Shown: piece after piece, positions 3,991 to 48,183 of the stretch
Numbering within the stretch: position 1 is the stretch's first letter
Layout: each line of letters starts with the position of its first letter
Source: Apus apus
Lineage: Eukaryota; Chordata; Aves; Apodiformes; Apodidae
NCBI RefSeq assembly: GCF_020740795.1
Contig: NC_067290.1
Coordinates: 16,598,001 to 16,662,000, forward strand
Reading direction: 5' to 3'
DNA: 64,000 nt
Made by a program: the position numbers and the translations under genes
The notes under the pieces: generated by a model
Told to the model about the DNA's origin: nothing
Databases searched by the model: none
Seen by the model: the letters and a program-made list of their open reading frames with translations, nothing else

Positions 3991-6740
3991 GCAATCCGAG
4001 GAAAAAGGCAGCAGTCGTATCGCTCCTTTCACTTGTGTCCAAGATCCCAGAGAAACTGTGATAAGGCACCTCTGAAATGTCACTCCATTAACTAAAGGCA
4101 GGGTTCTACTAGAAATGACAGTGTGTGCAGCTCACTGTGTCCTTATAACCACCTGCCCTCTCGCCATCAAAGTGCTGTGCAAACTCCAAGATCTAAGACA
4201 CCACCACAGTGCAAATGGATTTGCACAGGATTACTTGAAACCTTCAACAGCTTGAACCAGAGATTATGAAAGACAGGTGGAAAAATGTTTCAATGTCTTC
4301 CAAAAGATTTGGCCAAAGCCCTTGGAGTCTGACTGCCTCAGGAGCAGAGGGTCTGTAGGGTCACACCCCAAGGATCCTCTGTGTGATCAGTGCATTATAG
4401 CACCCTCTGACACTTTTGTCTCGACTTGCTTCCGGCATCACATCTCACACCTATACCCAGAAGCTACACTTTGAAATTACTGTGTGGAGACACTTTTGTA
4501 GCAGTACTGACACACGTTCCCCAGAATAATGAGCTCAAACACTCCATTTCATACACAATCAAGTCTCTTCACTTTTATTGTTTATATTTGTTCTCTCAGT
4601 TCTATCCCCGGGCTCAAGTTGACCTTCTGCTATTGAAAACACGACTCAGTGCAATTTGTGAGAGCAATAATAATGTGGTCTTCACCTACAGAGTGAGCAC
4701 AATAACCTTTTCTCATCTTCTTCCACCACTCTTTTCATTTCACTTTTCCTTTGATCAATTAGAAATTTGCTTTTAAGAAACACACAATTACACTATCACA
4801 TTGGAGGGCAAAGAGTCTCAAGGGTCAAAGAAACACAGAGGCAGAAACCTTTCAGAAGCTTAGGGCAGGAAAGCCCCTGGCTCGATACACTCAGTTCCTT
4901 TCTGTTCACAACACCATGAGAAAATAGAGTAATTGCTGGAATTAAAGAGGTACCAGGCCAGCAATCTATAATTAATCACATTTTACTCTGTCTTCACTTT
5001 CCAATGTGGAGGAGTTTCAGAGTGAGCCAAATTCATATGGCAGCAGTTCTAATCAAAACAAAATGTGGGCAAAGAGATGTCTCAAGACAAAGCGTTACCA
5101 GCCTGTATTAATCCTTTCTTCCACAAATACACATAAAAGAAAAAAAATAAATCAGTGTGTCTCAAAAGGCCTATTGAGGGAAAGCAAACAAACAGGCTTT
5201 TCAATGTAATATTGAATAACTCAAATGGTTGTGTGGCACATTTTTACCCATTTCATAACAGGACAGTTAGATAAATATATTCTTACAGTGCTCTTGTAAA
5301 AATCAATATTGCAATATACTAACTTGGGTTTTAGTGCTTATCTGTTCCATAATTTTATTAGACGGGGGGGAAAAAACAGTATAGATGGATCTACAGGTAA
5401 ACACTAACTCCAGTGTAATCTGTTCTGTAAACACGTTCAACAACTGGTCAAAGACAAGGAAGTATTGATTATTCTAACTCATTCCAATTAAATGGATACT
5501 GCAAAAGCAGTGGATGATGTAGCCACCAGCATATCTTGGGGGTTTCTGATGCCTCCCAGGCAGTGATAGTTCTCGATAAAATAGGGTTGTGTGAGGGGGG
5601 CATAAGGCAAACTCCTACACTGCAATCTTAAGACTGAGATTCAGCTGTTTTATATCAATATAGGAGATGGATCAGATCAGAAGCAAGAGGCTCACCCAGT
5701 TAATAACAGTAAAAGGAGTTTCAGGCTTCTCATGATGAAATCATGCTTTGTGTGTGTTCTCTGATCAGTGGGTCTGCTGCTAGTCCCTGCCTCTGCTCTC
5801 CAGTTAAATGAGTCTAAATAGCATTTCCCTATGCCGGAGAAGCATTTCAAGAACAGAAACAATAAAGGTCAGAAGTTATTTGAAAACTGTATGGGCACTG
5901 CATAATGCTTTTGACAGATGGAATAAGATAGCATTTGAAATTAGGTACTTTTCCTACGAATATTTACATGTTGTAAAATACTTCTTATGGCTCCTTTCTG
6001 TAGAGAATAGATTACTAAACCATTTAATGCCATCTTTTATAATAAGCTATTAAATAATTTATAAAATCTCCATCCATTAAATATTTAAAAGACCTTAATT
6101 TCTCTATTCTTACTAAGTCCTCACTAAAATAAAGACAGTGCATCCCTTAAAAGACTCCTCTTCTGTAAAGCAACTGGTCGGAAGGAAGCCAAGTGGGGAC
6201 AACTTGACTTCCCAGGGCAATTTGCCAGTCTGAGAGTTTAACCCCACGCTCAGCCCCTTTAACAGCTTCTGTCCTACTGAATAAAGAACGAGAGAAAAAG
6301 AGAGCAGCATCTGAAATCTCTTAGAAGCAGGGAAAAAAAAAAAAGACAAAATAAAAATACACACACACACAAAAAAAAAAAAAACACCACCACAAAATCT
6401 ATCCTGGTCACTACAGGTATGTGAAAAGTGCTGCTATCTGAGAGGCATCCAGACTGAAACGAAGACAAGAGGGGACACCCGCGTGGCCAGTGCTACCTGG
6501 TACACACCAGCCACCGCGTGCGGGGCGCCCGTCTCGGGGCTCGAGGACAACACACACCTCCACAGGCCCCTTCACCCCGCAGAACCGCGTTCCCCCGGGG
6601 GACGGCCGCCACCTGAAAGGTGACGCTGCTGGCAGCCCAAGGAAGCTTTAGTGCCGCGAGCGGGGAAACGGCTTCCTCCGCCTGCAGCGGCCCCGCTGCG
6701 CTGCGGCCGCTCAGCCCGCCCGAGGGGCGACCCAGCGGCG

Positions 6741-6900
6741 GCCTCGCCTGCCCCCTGGCGGCCTCGCCTGCCCCCTGGCGGCCTCGCCTGCCCCCTGGCG
6801 GCCTCGCCTGCCCCCTGGCGGCCTCGCCTGCCCCCTGGCGGCCTCGCCTGCCCCCTGGCGGCCTCGCCTGCCCCCTGGCGGCGCTCGCCTGCCCCCTGCC
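6741..6900. repeat. 20-bp GC-rich minisatellite (7 perfect copies + 1 degenerate)
   Basis: The unit GCCTCGCCTGCCCCCTGGCG is repeated seven times without a mismatch from 6741 to 6880. A degenerate eighth copy (6881-6900) carries a 2-bp GC shift and a GGCG to GCCC change. Perfect identity implies recent expansion or homogenisation, so copy number is likely polymorphic. Because 20 is not a multiple of 3, every frame reads the same 20-residue cyclic peptide, which explains the long spurious open frames. Each unit junction forms CCGCCAGGGGGCAG on the minus strand, an exact fit to the degenerate CTCF core CCDSYAGRKGGCRS. Confidence 0.97.
6748..6881 (-). promoter_or_regulatory. Array of seven CTCF-like core motifs
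   Basis: On the minus strand CCGCCAGGGGGCAG occurs at 6748-6761 and then every 20 bp to 6868-6881, seven times. Each copy satisfies all 14 positions of the CTCF core consensus as I know it. The sites share one orientation. Because a CTCF footprint exceeds 20 bp, neighbours could not all be bound at once. Binding is inferred; only the motif match is seen. Confidence 0.6.
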
Positions 6901-9900
6901 CGCCCTCCCGCCGCGAAGCCTCTGTTGTGCCGGTGCCCCTGCGTGCGGGAAGGAGCTGTCCGTGCAAATTAAGGCTTGTCATTATCAATCCCATTAACGT
7001 GTCGCTGTCACAGGGTTCCTCTGCCCACCCTCCTCGGCGCTCCCTGCACCGTCTCGCAGGCCCTGCCCTGTCTCCTCAAGGCGCCTTGTGAACCGACAGA
7101 AATGGGCCAGCAGAGGGAAATAATGCGATTTAGATTCTGAATTTATCCCCTCGACCCTCGCCCAGAAATCTCTGCATCAGGTCAGGTAACTTCAGCTTGA
7201 TCTGAAGACTTGGAGTGGCAGTAAATTCACCACAGCTAAGCTACCCCAACAGTTAATTAACCTCACTTTAGACACTGCACCCAATTTCTAAGCTGAATTT
7301 GTCCAGCTTCTGCTTCTAGGCATCTGATCTCGTCAGGGCTCTTGCTGGCAGCTGAAAGGGCCCTCTGCTCTCCAGCGCGGCTGCCCGCACTGGCTGCTCA
7401 CAGCCCAGCACCACCGGCCCAGCTCTCACAACTGTGAGGTGGAGGAAACCTCTCCTTGGAGGGCTTTGCAATATTAAATCCAGAACGCAGCTCTTCTCTG
7501 CATTGCTCACCATTTCTCAGTGTCAGGTATTTTGAAGTGGACCTCAGAAGACAAAGTAACCAGAGGAGATCTTTATCCATACCACAAGCAGAGGTAACAA
7601 GCCTTCCAGCTGGTACCTCATCTTCCCTCCTGATAGATCCTGCCTGCCTACCCAGCTGTCACAGCACACAGGAACACGTTAGGGGCTTTAAGGTCTCAGT
7701 TCTGCCCGTCATTACTCACACCAAGTAACAGTTACACCAGGCAGGAGGGGACTATGCAAACTGAAGGACACAAAGTTACGTGTACAGTAATTAATGTAAG
7801 ACTGCTCTCACAGTGCAAGAAAGGAAAACTATTGAGCCCAATTCCTCTCCCAGAGTCAACATGAACTTTTCCACTGCATTTACTCTCCCACAGAGATCAC
7901 CGAGAGGCCCAATCACATCAAGCTCCACAACATAAGGCAAACAGAAGTGAGAAGGCTCTTCAGACAGAAAGAAAGTTAGGCAAAGGAGGTAGTACCAAAC
8001 TGCAAGGGTGCTGCCTCACTGTTAAGCCAGGCAGGTAGCCAAAAAAACACAGGGAGGCTGCAGCCATTCCCAGCACTCTTCACCTGCAATTTTTAAGTGT
8101 TTTTTTTGATTACATCACTTTCCATTTATGACATCAGTCTCTGCTGGCAGCCTCTTAGTCTGTCACCCTTTCCACAGGAGTTTTTCAAAATCTCACTTAG
8201 AAGCAACTGGGGGAGGTGGAGAAGGAAAGAAAACAATGCAAATAAGATCTTAAGGAAATAAAACCCACAGCCTCCTAAGAGTGGAGTACTGAACTGCTAC
8301 GACATCCACATAACACGAAATAGCAACCACACCAGCAGCCAGACCATCCACACATCCTATCTGCCATGTGCTTTGGGGGAAATGTGTCTGTCTTCACCAG
8401 CACTTGGAGTTCTCTAGGATAGATCTGTCTGCACTGTTTCCTTTAGAGATGAGCACAAACCTTCCATCCGTTGTGGGCATGTTAAGAGAATGTGCTGAGA
8501 GGACTGCAAAAATATGCCTAAACCACCCTAATTCTCTGTCCCAACCAATGTAGCCTTTCTCAATTAATTCTGCCAGAGCTGCCAGAGTGAGAATAGTGGG
8601 TTGGATGGATCCTCTGGTGGAAAGTCTTTTTCAGCTGAACTTTTTCAGTTTAAGAGAGAGCTTGTGACCCCCAAATGTAATCCAGTGAAGCTTGGGTCAC
8701 ACAGCAGTGGCAACAGCAGCGCACAGAATCAGAAAACAAATTCAAGCAAGGTCTGAAGGTGAGAGCTAAAGGACTGCCAGAAGATCTCAAATTCACACGG
8801 TGTAAGGAGGAGTTTGAAATCAAAGCTGTTGCCTCCTCTGCTGAGGCAGAACAAGTCAGATGTCTACTCAGAACCTGATGCAATGCAAACAAGGGCTGTT
8901 TCAGGTCCCCTCCAGGCAAGGGAACAGGAGCTTCTTCGTATACACTGACTTCAGTGTATCTTCTGGGGACCTGTGGTCACCATGACTCACAGCTTTCATA
9001 CATATTTACATGGCAAGAAGCAGACTTGCAAATGAAGCATATGAGTGATGCTGGCACAAATAACTGATCACTTGCAGTTCAAAATTATGATCTCTGCATA
9101 TCAGAGGATCACCTAAATTAAACAGAATCTCATGTAGAAAATTAACTATCAGGAAAATGTTTTAGACCCTGATCTCTCAAGTCAAAATGAGTCCACATTT
9201 TCCCTCCAGAAAAAATCCTCCCAGACCAACAGGACTGCTCAGAGAATGAATTCTATTCTAGTGGTAGAGTCAGAATAGCCCCTTTTCTCCATAAAGCACT
9301 TTTTATTATTCATCACTATCCTACAAAGAACTCTTCTGCCAAAGTAAACTCCTGAAGAGGTAAGTATTGCTATAAAGGTTTCATTTTTAAGTTTGCACAG
9401 ACTTCCCAGCTCAAACAGCCAACACAGCATATCTCCTCATTACAGCCCAGCTTTTCAACACTTTCAACTATATTTATCAGAGAGAATTTTTCATTGTGAT
9501 GATCCAGGTTCTCAGCCCCTTGCTACAGCTCAAAATCTTCCCCACCCCCTGGTGTATGGCCTACTTAGGAGATGGGCAGACTTGCAGGCACCGTGTTCAA
9601 GGAAGCACAGGAATTGCTCCAACCCTGTTCAAAGAGGAGGCAGAGCAGAGACAGTGCCCCAGTCCACTCCCAACAGACTTCTTAGAAGCAGAGCAGTACT
9701 CACATTCAGCCAGCAGCACACCAAAAAAATGTGGAGAGAAACATCTTTGAAGAAACTCTCTTTAGCAGGATGTTTCAGACAAGGCAAATACACATTTTCC
9801 CCTGCTGCAAATTTTGCCTGCCAGGTAGCAAAGCAGTAAAGTTGTTGCACAAATTATCCTGAGCAATAAGACATTGTTTTCTGTACCCTGAATTGATGGA

Positions 9901-27544: not shown

Positions 27545-27641
27545 ACCAGTGGTGAAAAACCAGGGGATCCGGGAAAGAAAAGTATTTCAGGAGCTGTAAA
27601 ATCGGTAGCTGAAATTAAAGCCATTTTTGAAAGGGAAAAAG

Positions 27642-27665
27642 AAAAAAAAAAAAAAAAAAAAAAAA
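27642..27665. repeat. Poly-A tract (24 A) at the CpG island edge
   Basis: Uninterrupted run of 24 A within 60 bp of the left edge of the large CpG island. Confidence 0.95.
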
Positions 27666-27719
27666 GAGCGATGTCTACAAATCAAGCTTGTCCAACCCAA
27701 GTGGGGTTAGAGAAGCTAC

Positions 27720-28900
27720 GGCAGCACCCGAGTTACACACGCACTCACTAGTGCGTGGATATGTTTAAATATACCACGAATACCTGCAGGGTGGGAGCTG
27801 TCGCTCAGCCACGCTCGCAGCGCCAGAGCTTGCCCAGCCTGGGGGGTGCGACAGAGACGCGCTTCCAAGCTCATCCATCCCAGCCGCCGGCCGGGAAGCG
27901 GGATCTGCCTGGAGCTGCGCAAGGAGCCCGCAGCCCCCCGCGGGGGCAGCCGCCCAGCCCCGGGGGCGTACTTTGGGAACAGAAAAGTCACCATTCTTCA
28001 CCGCACCCCTGACCTGCGCTCCTCAAGGCGAGTTACCACGCAGGCTTAGACGTTTCTCCCGGCTCAGCTGCCTCCCACCCCCCAGCTGGGATCGCTCCTT
28101 CAGCCCTTCGGGACGCGCCGTCCCGAGCACCGGCCCGGGCAGCCCGCGGGGACCCCTGGAGGGCACCCCTGGAGGGGACTCCCGGCTGGGCAGCCCGACC
28201 CCCCACCTCCCGGCCCCAGCCCAGCCCCCCGGGCACCGCTTACCCTGCCGCCGGCTGGTCCGAGGAGCCGCTGGGCTGAAGCGCGGCAGGAGCCCGAGGG
28301 TCGCAGAGCGGGGGAAGCACCCCCGGGCGAGCGGGGAGCACGGCCCGCTCTGCAGCTGCCGGGAGGATGCTCCGCACAGCCTCCCGCACGGAGCGGCGCG
28401 GCGCCCGAAGTGCCTTTGGAGCTTCCCCTCCCACTCCTCCTCTTCAGAGCCAGGGGGAGGAAGCACCGTGTTACGGCTTTTCCTTGTCTCCCACCTCCGC
28501 GGGGCTCCCTGCCCCCTCCCTACACTTCTCCCTCAGTACGCGGCTCCACGTTAGGTGCAGAGCTGGAGCTGTCGGGGGGAACGTCCCCCTGTCCTCCCTC
28601 CGCCCCAGGGCCGCTGCTCTGCCTTCCGCGGGCAGAGCTGCACGGCAGCCCCGCTCAGCCCGGGCTCGTCCCCGCCTAACGCAGCCCTGACCTTATTTCG
28701 GCATCCGAGCGGTCGCTGCTCAGCCGAGGGAAGAGAAAGGAGACGCTGGTTCAGCTCCCAGCCGGGTCGGGGTTCGCAGCATCTTTTGGAGGCAGTAGCA
28801 GCAACTTGAGAAGGATGCGGAGGGTCAGGGCCAGCACCTGCCCCCTCTGCCCGCCCGTCTGCCCGCGCTGCCTCCCGCCCGCAGCCGCGGGGTTATCAAT
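27720..28900. promoter_or_regulatory. CpG island, probable TAFA4 promoter
   Basis: This is a 1.2-kb block of high GC content and dense CpG in otherwise CpG-depleted DNA, with sharp edges at an A-rich tract on the left and at AT-rich TTATCAATTAATTAA on the right. It contains GC boxes and a strong minus-strand splice donor at 28,243. Its place upstream of TAFA4 on the gene's strand makes it the best promoter candidate. A divergent plus-strand transcript cannot be excluded. Confidence 0.75.
28244..28480 (-). other. Candidate non-coding first exon of TAFA4 in CpG island
   Basis: Within the large CpG island a minus-strand donor GCAGG|GTAAGCGG occurs at 28243/28244, close to the vertebrate consensus. 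It is on the same strand as TAFA4 and lies upstream of it, with no other gene between. This suggests the 5' exon of the long TAFA4 transcript, spliced across about 24 kb to the exon at 3755. The 5' edge given (28,480) is only a guess, because no TATA box or clear initiator marks the transcription start. The open frames across this region come from GC richness and resemble no known protein. Confidence 0.4.
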
Positions 28901-30112
28901 TAATTAACGCCTTCAAAAATTCAGCGTTAATGGCAGAAGTGAAAGATGCTGTTTCCCCGGCTACAAAGCCGGGGTCACTTCGACAGGCTTGCCAGCAGGG
29001 ACACCGACTTTCTGTACAACCTCTATCAAACTCCCTTTTACACCCTCAGTTTCTCCTGAAGATCTGGTGCTGGCTTAAACGGGGATGTCTAAATATGTGC
29101 GTAAGTGGGAGGCAGGCATTTAAATATCTGTAGGTATTAGTCTCCTTTCTGTGAGAGAGGGCAGTGTCTCACCAGAAGTGACCCTAGAGCTCAGGGAAAC
29201 AGCAGCCTGATCTTGGCTGCCTTCCCTAAACACTGTTGGGATACAAATCACCATCATCATCCTGGACAAACATTCCTTAAATTCGAAGAACCACTGAAAA
29301 TCTGCCTAGTGGAACAGGGCAGGCTACTTTTATCACAGGAAATCACTCATCAGCTACTGATGTGGAATGGCATATTGCTTTCCAAGCTGCCCGTGTGCAA
29401 CTTTTTTAGTGCAGATGTCAGAACCCAGTAAAAATCTCAGTAGTTTTCACACCACGGTTCACTGTAAATTAATAATACAGCAGCAAAATCTCACAGCTTA
29501 GATAAATTCATTTAGCCTGAAAGAAAAGGTTTAAGCCCCAAGCCTTAGCTCTCCCCCATCTTGTGTTAGCATAATTCTGTGATAACTCAGCTGGGTGTTT
29601 TAATCAAGGAGAGCTACAATACAGCCCAAACAGGAGTGAACAAGCCCACAGCATCAGATCATGTTTCTCTATCTCGTTCCCTACATGGGGAGCTACTACC
29701 TTCTTTCTTACTGCTCCCTGACACTTAACACCCTTCCAGTCCTCCAGACCTTCACAAAGCCCAGAAAAAGAAACAGAGAAAAGGCAGATAAGTGAAGGAG
29801 CTCCAAGCTTTGTGAGAAGTAGATCTGGAGAAAAGGGAGAGAACTGAACGGACTGGTGGGAAAGGAAAGATTTAGAGGACAGGAGACAAATCAGCAGGAA
29901 AAGGGTCTGATCTTGCTGCCTGGGGAACATTTTGTTGAAAGCAGGCTGGCCAAGACATCAGACAGGGATTACATGGGTTCAACATCCTTCGTACGTGTGG
30001 ACAGAGCAGCTCATCTGCTGTGGGTGCTCTTACAACCAGGCTGCTGAGCCAAGGGAGTCAGAAGTTCACTGTTCTCCCTGACCTGGTGCTATCCTGCACT
30101 CACATTCCCACA

Positions 30113-42921: not shown

Positions 42922-43280
42922 TGCCCAGGCTCTGGGGAAACCTTATAGCACCTTCCAGTACCTGAAGGGGCTACAGGAAAGATGGGGAGGGGCTTTTCAC
43001 CAGACAGGGCAGTGATAGAACAAGAGGTGATGGTTTAAAACTGAAAGAGGGGAGATTTAGGTTAGATATCAGGAAGAAATTCTTCACCTTGAGGGTAGGA
43101 AGGTGCTGGAATAGATTGCCCAGGCAGGTCGTGGAAGCCCCATCCCTGGAGATGATCAAGGCCAGGTTGGATGAGGCCTGTGCAGCCTGGTGTGATGTGT
43201 CCCTGCTCATGGCAGGGGGGTTGGAACCTGATGTTCTTTAAGGTCCCTTCCAATCTTAACCATTCTATGGCTCTATGAGT
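42922..43280 (+). mobile_element. CR1 LINE 3' fragment (plus orientation)
   Basis: The segment contains the hallmark CR1 tail: CCTTCCAGTACCTGAAGGGG, then ATCAGGAAGAAATTCTTCACC, then a terminal AAGGTCCCTTCCAATCTTAA and CATTCTATGGCTCTATGAG. It is a 5'-truncated, inactive copy of about 360 bp in the TAFA4-EOGT intergenic region. It is less diverged from the CR1 consensus as I recall it than the copy at 16.7 kb, suggesting a younger insertion. Confidence 0.96.
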
Positions 43281-46200: not shown

Positions 46201-48183
46201 CAATAAATAAGTTATAAGAAAGGCTGCATACTTCACTAAGGATAAAGATGTTTAGCAAAAGAAAAGTTCCTCCACTTCTGGTCCCCCACTGGGTGTCAAA
46301 TGAAGCCAGAGCTGAGGGCTCAGCCAGTCCATGAGGTTCTTTGCTGTGCACATTTTCATCTGGACTGAGGCATCTTTATTTAACAGCATCCATTCTGCCT
46401 TCGAGCCTTTTACACCAGAGAATAGCTTGCTTATTTTTCCCAGCACTGATGAAGTCCTCCCAGTCACAACAAACTCAGAATACCCAGTCAGTTTGAGAAA
46501 GATGAAGTGATGGGGGGAGGCACATTTCATTACGCTATCAAGGCTGTGGCCTGGTAATTGGTGAAGAAACAATTCGGGGCTGTCAGCTCGATACACACCT
46601 CTTTTCACTGACTGATCTGCTGGGTCCTTGCTGGGTAATGAATGATGTCCAAGGGTGGTCACCACCCACTAACATCCTTTTGCCAACATTCTCACAAAGC
46701 CCTGAGCAGCCCTGATCCCTCCCCATCATGGACACGGACCCTCAGCCACCTCCTGCACACCCCAGGGGCCTGGGCAGGTTCCCTCAACCTACATGACAGC
46801 AACAAGGATTTTAATCATCTGCGAAGTGCAAAAGATCAAAACCCAAAGGGGGACAACAACCCCTGCTGCAGGCTCCACCAGAGCTGCACACAGGTACCTG
46901 GCATGCTCAGGATCTGCCCGTGTTCCTCACCTGACACAGACCTGCAGATGCCAACTTGTAGCAGTCAGTTATTGACCTTCCCCACCCGTGGCAGCCTTCC
47001 TCCCCCTCGGAGTCTGTCTCAGCCCTGCACCACTGAAAGGAGGACAGTTTGCAGGTTACATGGTGTGTGCTGACAGAGGGACTCCAAAGAGCCCTAACTC
47101 AAACACCAAAGTCAACGATGGACACACTGCTCTTGTGCCACAGAGAGGGAAATGAATGAAGCAATGTGTACCTTAGTGTCCTTTTATTTTTAAAATAATT
47201 ACTTATTTATTAGAAAAATGGAAAAAGAAAATAGGTATTTTGCTCTCTGCTTCACTGTATGTTGAAATTATATCTTACATCTGCTTTCCAACTTTCTTAC
47301 ACAGTAAATCCAACAATTACTACCCTGTACTAACTTTAAAGCTGGTTTTCATTTTGCTCAGCTGTTGAAAGCTGTTGGGCAGACAGCAGGCAGAGAAACC
47401 AACACCAGCTTAAACCAACAAGAAGGTGCAATGCAGGCCACTGCATCCCACCCTGGGGCAGCTCAAAGGGTTTCAAAGCTGCAAAGGAAAGTTAATCAAT
47501 TTCATTTTTAATGACCAACCGTGGGATCAGTTTGGAAAAGGGGCAACCTGCAAAGCACAAATATTTTCCTTTAAAAACAAACATCCTTGTGGTAATTGAT
47601 TGGGTTCTTTTAAATAAGAACTTCACGGTTTTCCAATATTTTCTTGCTATTTTCTGCTTGTCAGTGGTCTACATTTTCAAGGACACCAGAAGCTCATGCA
47701 CCCTCCCACACACCCCGGTGAACTACACTTTGTGGACAATTCAGTGGTGGAAGGTGCATGATATGATCCAGTTGCACAACTGGATCACGTGTTGCATAAG
47801 GGAAAAATCAAGACTTTGCAGCCTAACAGGAACTGCACTAACTGCTAAAAAGTGGCAGTTTGGCACAAAATAGTTCTACAAGAAAATGAGAAACAGGATT
47901 TTGCTACAGAGAATTGACTGAAAATTATTTTCCAACACCGACTAAGCTGCTTAAAGAGAAAGTAAGGAAAAATATTCTGGTATTATAGCATCTGAACAAT
48001 TTTAAGCTCAATACTAACATCTCCCTGGATGACTTTTTTCCAGGCTTTTCCTTCCACAAACAAGAAGAAGGGAAAACAAAATAATAATCTATAGGAGCAG
48101 TTGCTTTATTGTACTCCTCTGTGAGCTGATTTCGCATTTGAAACGAGATTCCCTTTGACAAGGGAACATTGGAAAGGGCTCTA

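Follow-up and report, generated by a model that had tools for sequence, protein, structure and literature searches.

Seven CTCF-like sites at the unit junctions of a 20-bp minisatellite 5' of the first TAFA4 coding exon in Apus apus

The window, by which we mean the whole 64,000-nt stretch of Apus apus DNA analysed here, contains a minisatellite of 20-bp units with seven CTCF-like sites that all point the same way, and in the present array sequence each of these sites spans the junction between two units. Each junction makes one site, so that copy number sets site number: n units carry n-1 sites. The array is real and regular and, judged from its letters, probably binds CTCF.

The repeat itself is very clean. 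TRF reports 8.1 copies of GGCGGCCTCGCCTGCCCCCT at positions 6737-6898, with a period of 20 and 99% matches, and in the unit listing units 1-7 (6737-6876) are identical while unit 8 has one inserted G. The minus-strand word CCGCCAGGGGGCAG, which reads CTGCCCCCTGGCGG on the plus strand, occurs exactly seven times, from 6748-6761 to 6868-6881, in 20-bp steps. When up to two mismatches are allowed the array word has eight matches against 0.23 expected, and eight matches were reached in none of 100 shuffles of the window. The TRF result and the seven exact minus-strand words bear out the description, given in an earlier note on this DNA, of a 20-bp tandem array with its sites all in one orientation. 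The same note had placed the sites in phase on the helix, and here only the looser form of the claim stands: because 20 bp corresponds to 1.90 turns (at 10.5 bp per turn), with a drift of about 34 degrees between successive sites, the phase is approximate and strict phasing has to be given up.

Some further features of the array region can be mentioned at this point. A hairpin was considered as the driver of expansion and set aside as weak, with z = -2.0 for the plus strand and -1.1 for the minus strand. Long open frames span the array on both strands (6493-7091), and in them the unit reads as a 20-residue repeat. As the 20-bp unit contains no stop, several reading frames stay open through the array on either strand, and these frames are likely not genes. 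Another open frame, from the window's ORF list, lies at 42966-43241 on the plus strand and resembles by eye what we take to be a CR1-type retroelement remnant. A search of the whole window against Rfam, at gathering score, returned no match. At its right end the array adjoins a predicted canonical G-quadruplex pattern, GGGAGGGCGGGCAGGGGG (6892-6909, minus strand), one of eight such patterns that the scan finds in the 64 kb, and G-quadruplexes have been reported to bind CTCF in vitro (PMC8269367).

Sites were scored with a reconstructed version of the JASPAR CTCF matrix MA0139.1. The scan gives seven 19-bp CTCF-like sites on the minus strand, in 20-bp steps across 6746-6884, of which six score 15.5 bits (15.51) and the rightmost (6866-6884) 13.8 bits. 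The chicken beta-globin FII oligonucleotide, with its sequence taken from PMC3014928, scores 15.42 bits with the same matrix, level with an array site. Scoring the units with a CTCF matrix had been proposed as a check, and with the reconstructed matrix the outcome, equality with a proven chicken site, speaks for the array. The accompanying claim of a fit to all 14 positions of the CTCF consensus was too strong. Three words given in PMC6746451, where the search rule allows two mismatches, serve for comparison: CCGCGNGGNGGCAG from the H19 control region, CCGCTAGGGGGCAG from chicken FII and CCASYAGRKGGCRS from the human genome-wide set. The array word agrees with each at 13 of 14 letters, and the fit is 13 rather than 14 because the unit differs from each of these words at one position. 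The chance of an array-site score at any one position is 2.6e-6 at even base composition and 1.9e-5 at 80% GC. When the unit is shuffled, 203 of 20,000 dinucleotide-preserving shuffles (about 1%) and 46 of 20,000 simple shuffles score at least as high as the array.

Two details of the match bear on how strong the sites would be. At core position 3 all seven sites have G where CTCF strongly prefers A, as in the NCANNAG consensus quoted in PMC8269367, at a cost of -1.8 bits. The FII and H19 words also have G there, however, and A at this position is therefore not required of bound sites. The second detail is the upstream CTCF motif (CAGCTGTTCC-like), which none of the seven units contains, the best candidate agreeing at 4 of 10 letters 4-13 bp upstream of the core. 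This motif is typical of the published insulators surveyed in PMC12885311, and its lack counts against a strong classic insulator. As regards spacing, seven motifs at 20-bp steps lie well inside the limit used for clustered sites (2xCTS), namely at least two motifs with <100 bp between them (PMC5973138), and by their letters the units, carrying a CTCF consensus, make the array a candidate staggered tandem repeat.

The location of the sites at the junctions has a simple consequence for copy number, which we followed by contracting and extending the array in silico, counting sites of at least 12 bits. Site number rises from one at two units to seven at eight and would be eleven at twelve; in a single unit the best score is 2.5 bits and there is no site. 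The end copy beside the unique flank (6887-6905, minus strand) likewise reaches 2.5 bits, with the CTCF-like site absent. Because one unit is without a site, a fully contracted allele would be without a CTCF-like site, whatever the history of the array. We infer that duplication created the sites, as opposed to multiplying one that was later lost from the flank. When arrays are contracted in silico by whole periods of their perfect tracts, all eight arrays found in the genome (below) retain at least one site, and the window array keeps one site at two units and none at one.

The whole genome (1.10 Gb in 110 contigs) was searched for tandem CTCF words. Two words exactly 20 bp apart gave 14 matches, which fall in only three arrays, and the backwards control gave none. 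With free spacing (0 to 14 bases between the words) there were 38 matches at 17 places, again with none for the backwards control, and a permuted word of the same letters gave none in the tandem search and three for its own backwards control. As a single word, in 264 kb of host sequence with the array left out, the CTCF word is about as frequent as the permuted one, with 0 against 1 exact matches, 3 against 7 with up to one mismatch and 86 against 81 with up to two; at this last setting it outnumbers both backwards words, which have 33 and 57 matches.

Eight of the 17 places are arrays with at least three sites, and the other nine are single pairs. The arrays lie at 19.67 and 44.48 Mb on contig C5, at 23.59 and 64.01 Mb on C6, at 15.44 and 16.60 Mb on C10 (the latter being the window array) and at 0.10 and 43.36 Mb on C36. 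Examined in pieces of 500-600 bases, with sites counted at 11 bits or more, they have periods of 19-27 bp, three to seven sites each, a GC content of 0.70-0.83 and a CpG observed/expected ratio (o/e) of 0.67-1.07; across all eight the sites score 12.3 to 22.0 bits with the reconstructed matrix. A 20-bp period as a special rule is rejected, given periods from 19 to 27 bp in the other arrays. Spacers are not the same from one array to the next, a point in favour of separate origins.

The individual arrays vary in how regular they are. In L039 decayed units separate some of the sites, giving steps of 57 and 38 bp; each of L040 and L041 is interrupted by a single step of 42 or 51 bp. A 19-mer, GGGCCGGCAGGGGGCGCTG, is common to L029, L042 and L043, by shared origin or by convergence. 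L029 (C5:44481970-44482075) has five sites scoring between 18.4 and 18.7 bits, of which four follow one another at 20 bp and the fifth comes 27 bp later, and is followed within about 100 bp by a 56-bp GC-rich minisatellite. L032 (C10:15438328-15438446), which is 1.17 Mb from the window array on the same contig, has six sites spaced 20 bp apart, with scores between 13.3 and 13.9 bits, and is GC- and CpG-rich. In L042 (C36:95651-96150), with six sites, the spacers vary by a base or two and five of the six 19-mers are identical, a pattern that could possibly reflect selection on the site.

These counts bear directly on the alternative that survives best, namely that the array is a neutral GC-rich minisatellite produced by slippage or recombination in an open CpG island, which looks like the CTCF core by chance and where any binding would be without effect. 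We regard this as quite possible, if somewhat doubtful. Recent expansion alone would account for the identity among units 1-7, a shuffled unit equals the real one in score in about 1% of cases, and GC-richness is shared by the unit and its flanks, with a quadruplex pattern adjoining one side. It also fits this alternative that the genome contains GC-rich minisatellites of related composition without strong CTCF-like sites: in five C-rich minisatellites resembling the window array, from L002-L008 (seven of the 18 other matches), none of the five has a site of at least 12 bits inside, the nearest misses both being in L002, at 11.4 bits inside the array and 13.0 bits 17 bp outside it. The same result cuts the other way as well, since it implies that CTCF-like arrays are not simply what any C-rich minisatellite looks like. 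Composition alone, moreover, does not predict the excess of tandem pairs, 38 for the CTCF word versus 0, 0 and 3 for the controls. The single-word counts to set beside this excess come from a small sample (264 kb), and there the higher two-mismatch count of the CTCF word relative to the backwards words weighs against it. With at least eight such arrays in one genome, the results suggest that tandem duplication in CpG islands here repeatedly makes or multiplies CTCF sites.

The surroundings of the array were mapped with respect to both CpG content and genes. By a 500-bp sliding rule the array lies within a CpG island at 6211-7340 (GC 0.597, CpG o/e 0.71). The CpG o/e is 0.63 for the array alone, 0.90 for the left flank (6480-6740) and 0.19 for the whole window, and the CpG retention in the left flank suggests germline hypomethylation. 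A tblastn search with the human TAFA4 protein aligns the first coding exon (its aligned part) to 749-868 on the minus strand at 77.5% identity (E 8e-16), with an AG acceptor and a GT donor, and beyond the left edge of the window, at distances of 33 and 41 kb, the protein matches two further minus-strand stretches. Since the exon matches are on the minus strand and the further ones lie leftward, TAFA4 runs leftwards, and the array is 5.9 kb 5' of its first coding exon with the motifs on the strand of the gene. The island and the exon match thus agree with the earlier note, which had put the array in a CpG island in the 5' part of TAFA4. Another CpG island, larger than the first, spans 27551-29200 and is a candidate for a minus-strand promoter of TAFA4; two more quadruplex patterns, at 28199-28230 and 28841-28864, occur in it.

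To the right of the array, 205 bp beyond it and in the opposite direction, there is a single CTCF-like site, GGGCCAGCAGAGGGAAATA (7104-7122, plus strand), which at 16.3 bits is the best in the window and faces away from the array. Seven minus-strand sites to the left of one plus-strand site make a divergent layout, read from sequence and noticed post hoc, and the chance of the best other site falling within 260 bp of the array, about 1%, was likewise computed after the site had been seen. A single site of equal strength is not rare: two others in the window outside the array reach at least 15.5 bits, and the whole 264 kb holds six sites of at least 13.5 bits once those of the array are set aside. 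At this threshold of 13.5 bits, the nearest plus-strand site to the left of the array is 87 kb left of the window, and on the minus strand there are sites at 48182 and, outside the window, 12 kb from its left edge. These positions yield two predicted loops, one from the distant left plus-strand site to the array and one from 7104 to 48182.

The same setting would also suit a promoter-type cluster, in which CTCF on neighbouring units would form a transcription platform or an alternative TAFA4 start and not an insulator. In its favour, the array occupies a CpG island 5' of the exons that code for TAFA4 and its motifs share the strand of the gene, and clustered mammalian sites <100 bp apart bear promoter-like marks (PMC5973138, PMC4562119). 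The larger island at 27551-29200 is, however, an equally good promoter candidate, and we consider this explanation unlikely. More unlikely still is that the array belongs to a different factor, of zinc-finger or GC-box type, whose word overlaps the CTCF core, such as INSM1, AP-2 or a C2H2 protein specific to the lineage: the unit contains GCCAGGGGGCA, which agrees with the INSM1 word at 11 of 12 letters, yet the seven other arrays differ in letters and spacers and nevertheless hold CTCF-like sites (12.3 to 22.0 bits), an argument that is weak because the array search pattern itself asked for CTCF letters. The preferred words of INSM1 and AP-2 are presumably similar to the array unit.

The reading that we prefer, and to which we give about even weight, is that the array would likely have a few CTCF molecules bound at once and would act as a reverse-facing stop for loop-extruding cohesin. 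In its first step CTCF would bind the array, with site number and score read from the sequence and occupancy predicted. The contacts of CTCF would cover about 33 bp, made up of a 15-bp core (PMC6222495), a linker of about 8 bp and a 10-bp upstream part (PMC12885311). Because this exceeds the 20-bp step, about every second site could be filled, at most four of the seven, and additional copies would do more for the chance of occupancy than for the count of bound molecules. The array could serve as a boundary that is stronger or weaker according to its number of repeats. Binding may also depend on methylation. Methylation at core position 2 weakens CTCF binding (PMC6222495), and by our own mapping of the positions in that paper each core has a CpG at position 2 (the CCG at the core start) and none at position 12, so that binding to the array would be expected in the unmethylated state of the island. 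Together with the outward-facing site at 7104 the array would form a divergent layout, of the kind enriched at domain borders. In mouse cells, strong borders show an enrichment of motif clusters lying inside a binding region (PMC10497529), and in the duck CTCF motifs are abundant at borders (PMC7787181).

A wider proposal, which we put forward tentatively and think rather improbable in its full form, is that CTCF boundaries in this genome are products of minisatellite expansion. In CpG islands free of methylation, short GC-rich units would go through duplication until sites appear at their junctions. The resulting boundaries, switchable by methylation and tuned by copy number, would form a recurrent class of which the arrays found here (at least eight) would be members; the TAFA4 boundary would then have arisen from sequence without a site, each added unit adding one.

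If CTCF does bind the array, boundary strength could vary between individuals in a manner that can be counted by long reads, and an allele with one unit would amount to a naturally occurring loss of all seven sites. Finding eight arrays in a single genome lifts the case from an anecdote to a class, whose members can be tested together for binding, methylation and polymorphism. Minisatellite expansion would then be a route to new CTCF sites besides transposons.

The array can be compared with several known systems. The H19/Igf2 control region has several sites, spread over kilobases and imprinted, whereas the window holds one 20-bp array for which imprinting is not claimed. The two are alike in their CpG-bearing cores, which agree at 13 of 14 letters (PMC6746451). 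The core of chicken beta-globin HS4 FII is one letter off the array (C in place of T, both being tolerated there) with an equal matrix score; FII is a single site with proven CTCF binding (PMC3014928, PMC6746451), while the sites of the window array are predicted. The DXZ4 macrosatellite is, like the array, tandem and linked to CTCF, and is polymorphic, but it consists of 3-kb units on the X chromosome in contrast to the 20-bp units here. CTCF clusters at borders resemble the array locus in their clustered sites, in their divergent sites, which are enriched at borders, and in lying near gene starts (PMC6945661, PMC10497529, PMC10703910); they are described as older sites with newly gained neighbours, and the available parts of these papers do not mention 20-bp tandem duplication.

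Closer in kind are the VNTRs of the serotonin transporter (LPR and Stin2; PMC2848977), with units of 16-17 and 22-23 bp at a neural gene, predicted CTCF sites and binding. The window array differs in having seven identical words in a CpG island; the likeness drawn here concerns unit length, the neural gene and the predicted CTCF sites. The closest are 171 human repeats, mostly simple tandem repeats, bound by CTCF and BORIS in ChIP in a cancer line, for which it was proposed that tandem units make staggered cluster sites (PMC5007689). As in the array, a short GC-rich CTCF consensus is repeated there into a cluster site; those repeats are ChIP-bound, whereas the window array is known from its sequence and loses the site at one unit. 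In the literature text searched, no mention was found of three unit words of the array. The idea of CTCF-bound tandem repeats is thus already in print for human, and the window array is a new and clean member; what is added here is a set of eight arrays in one genome and a single unit that has no site of its own.
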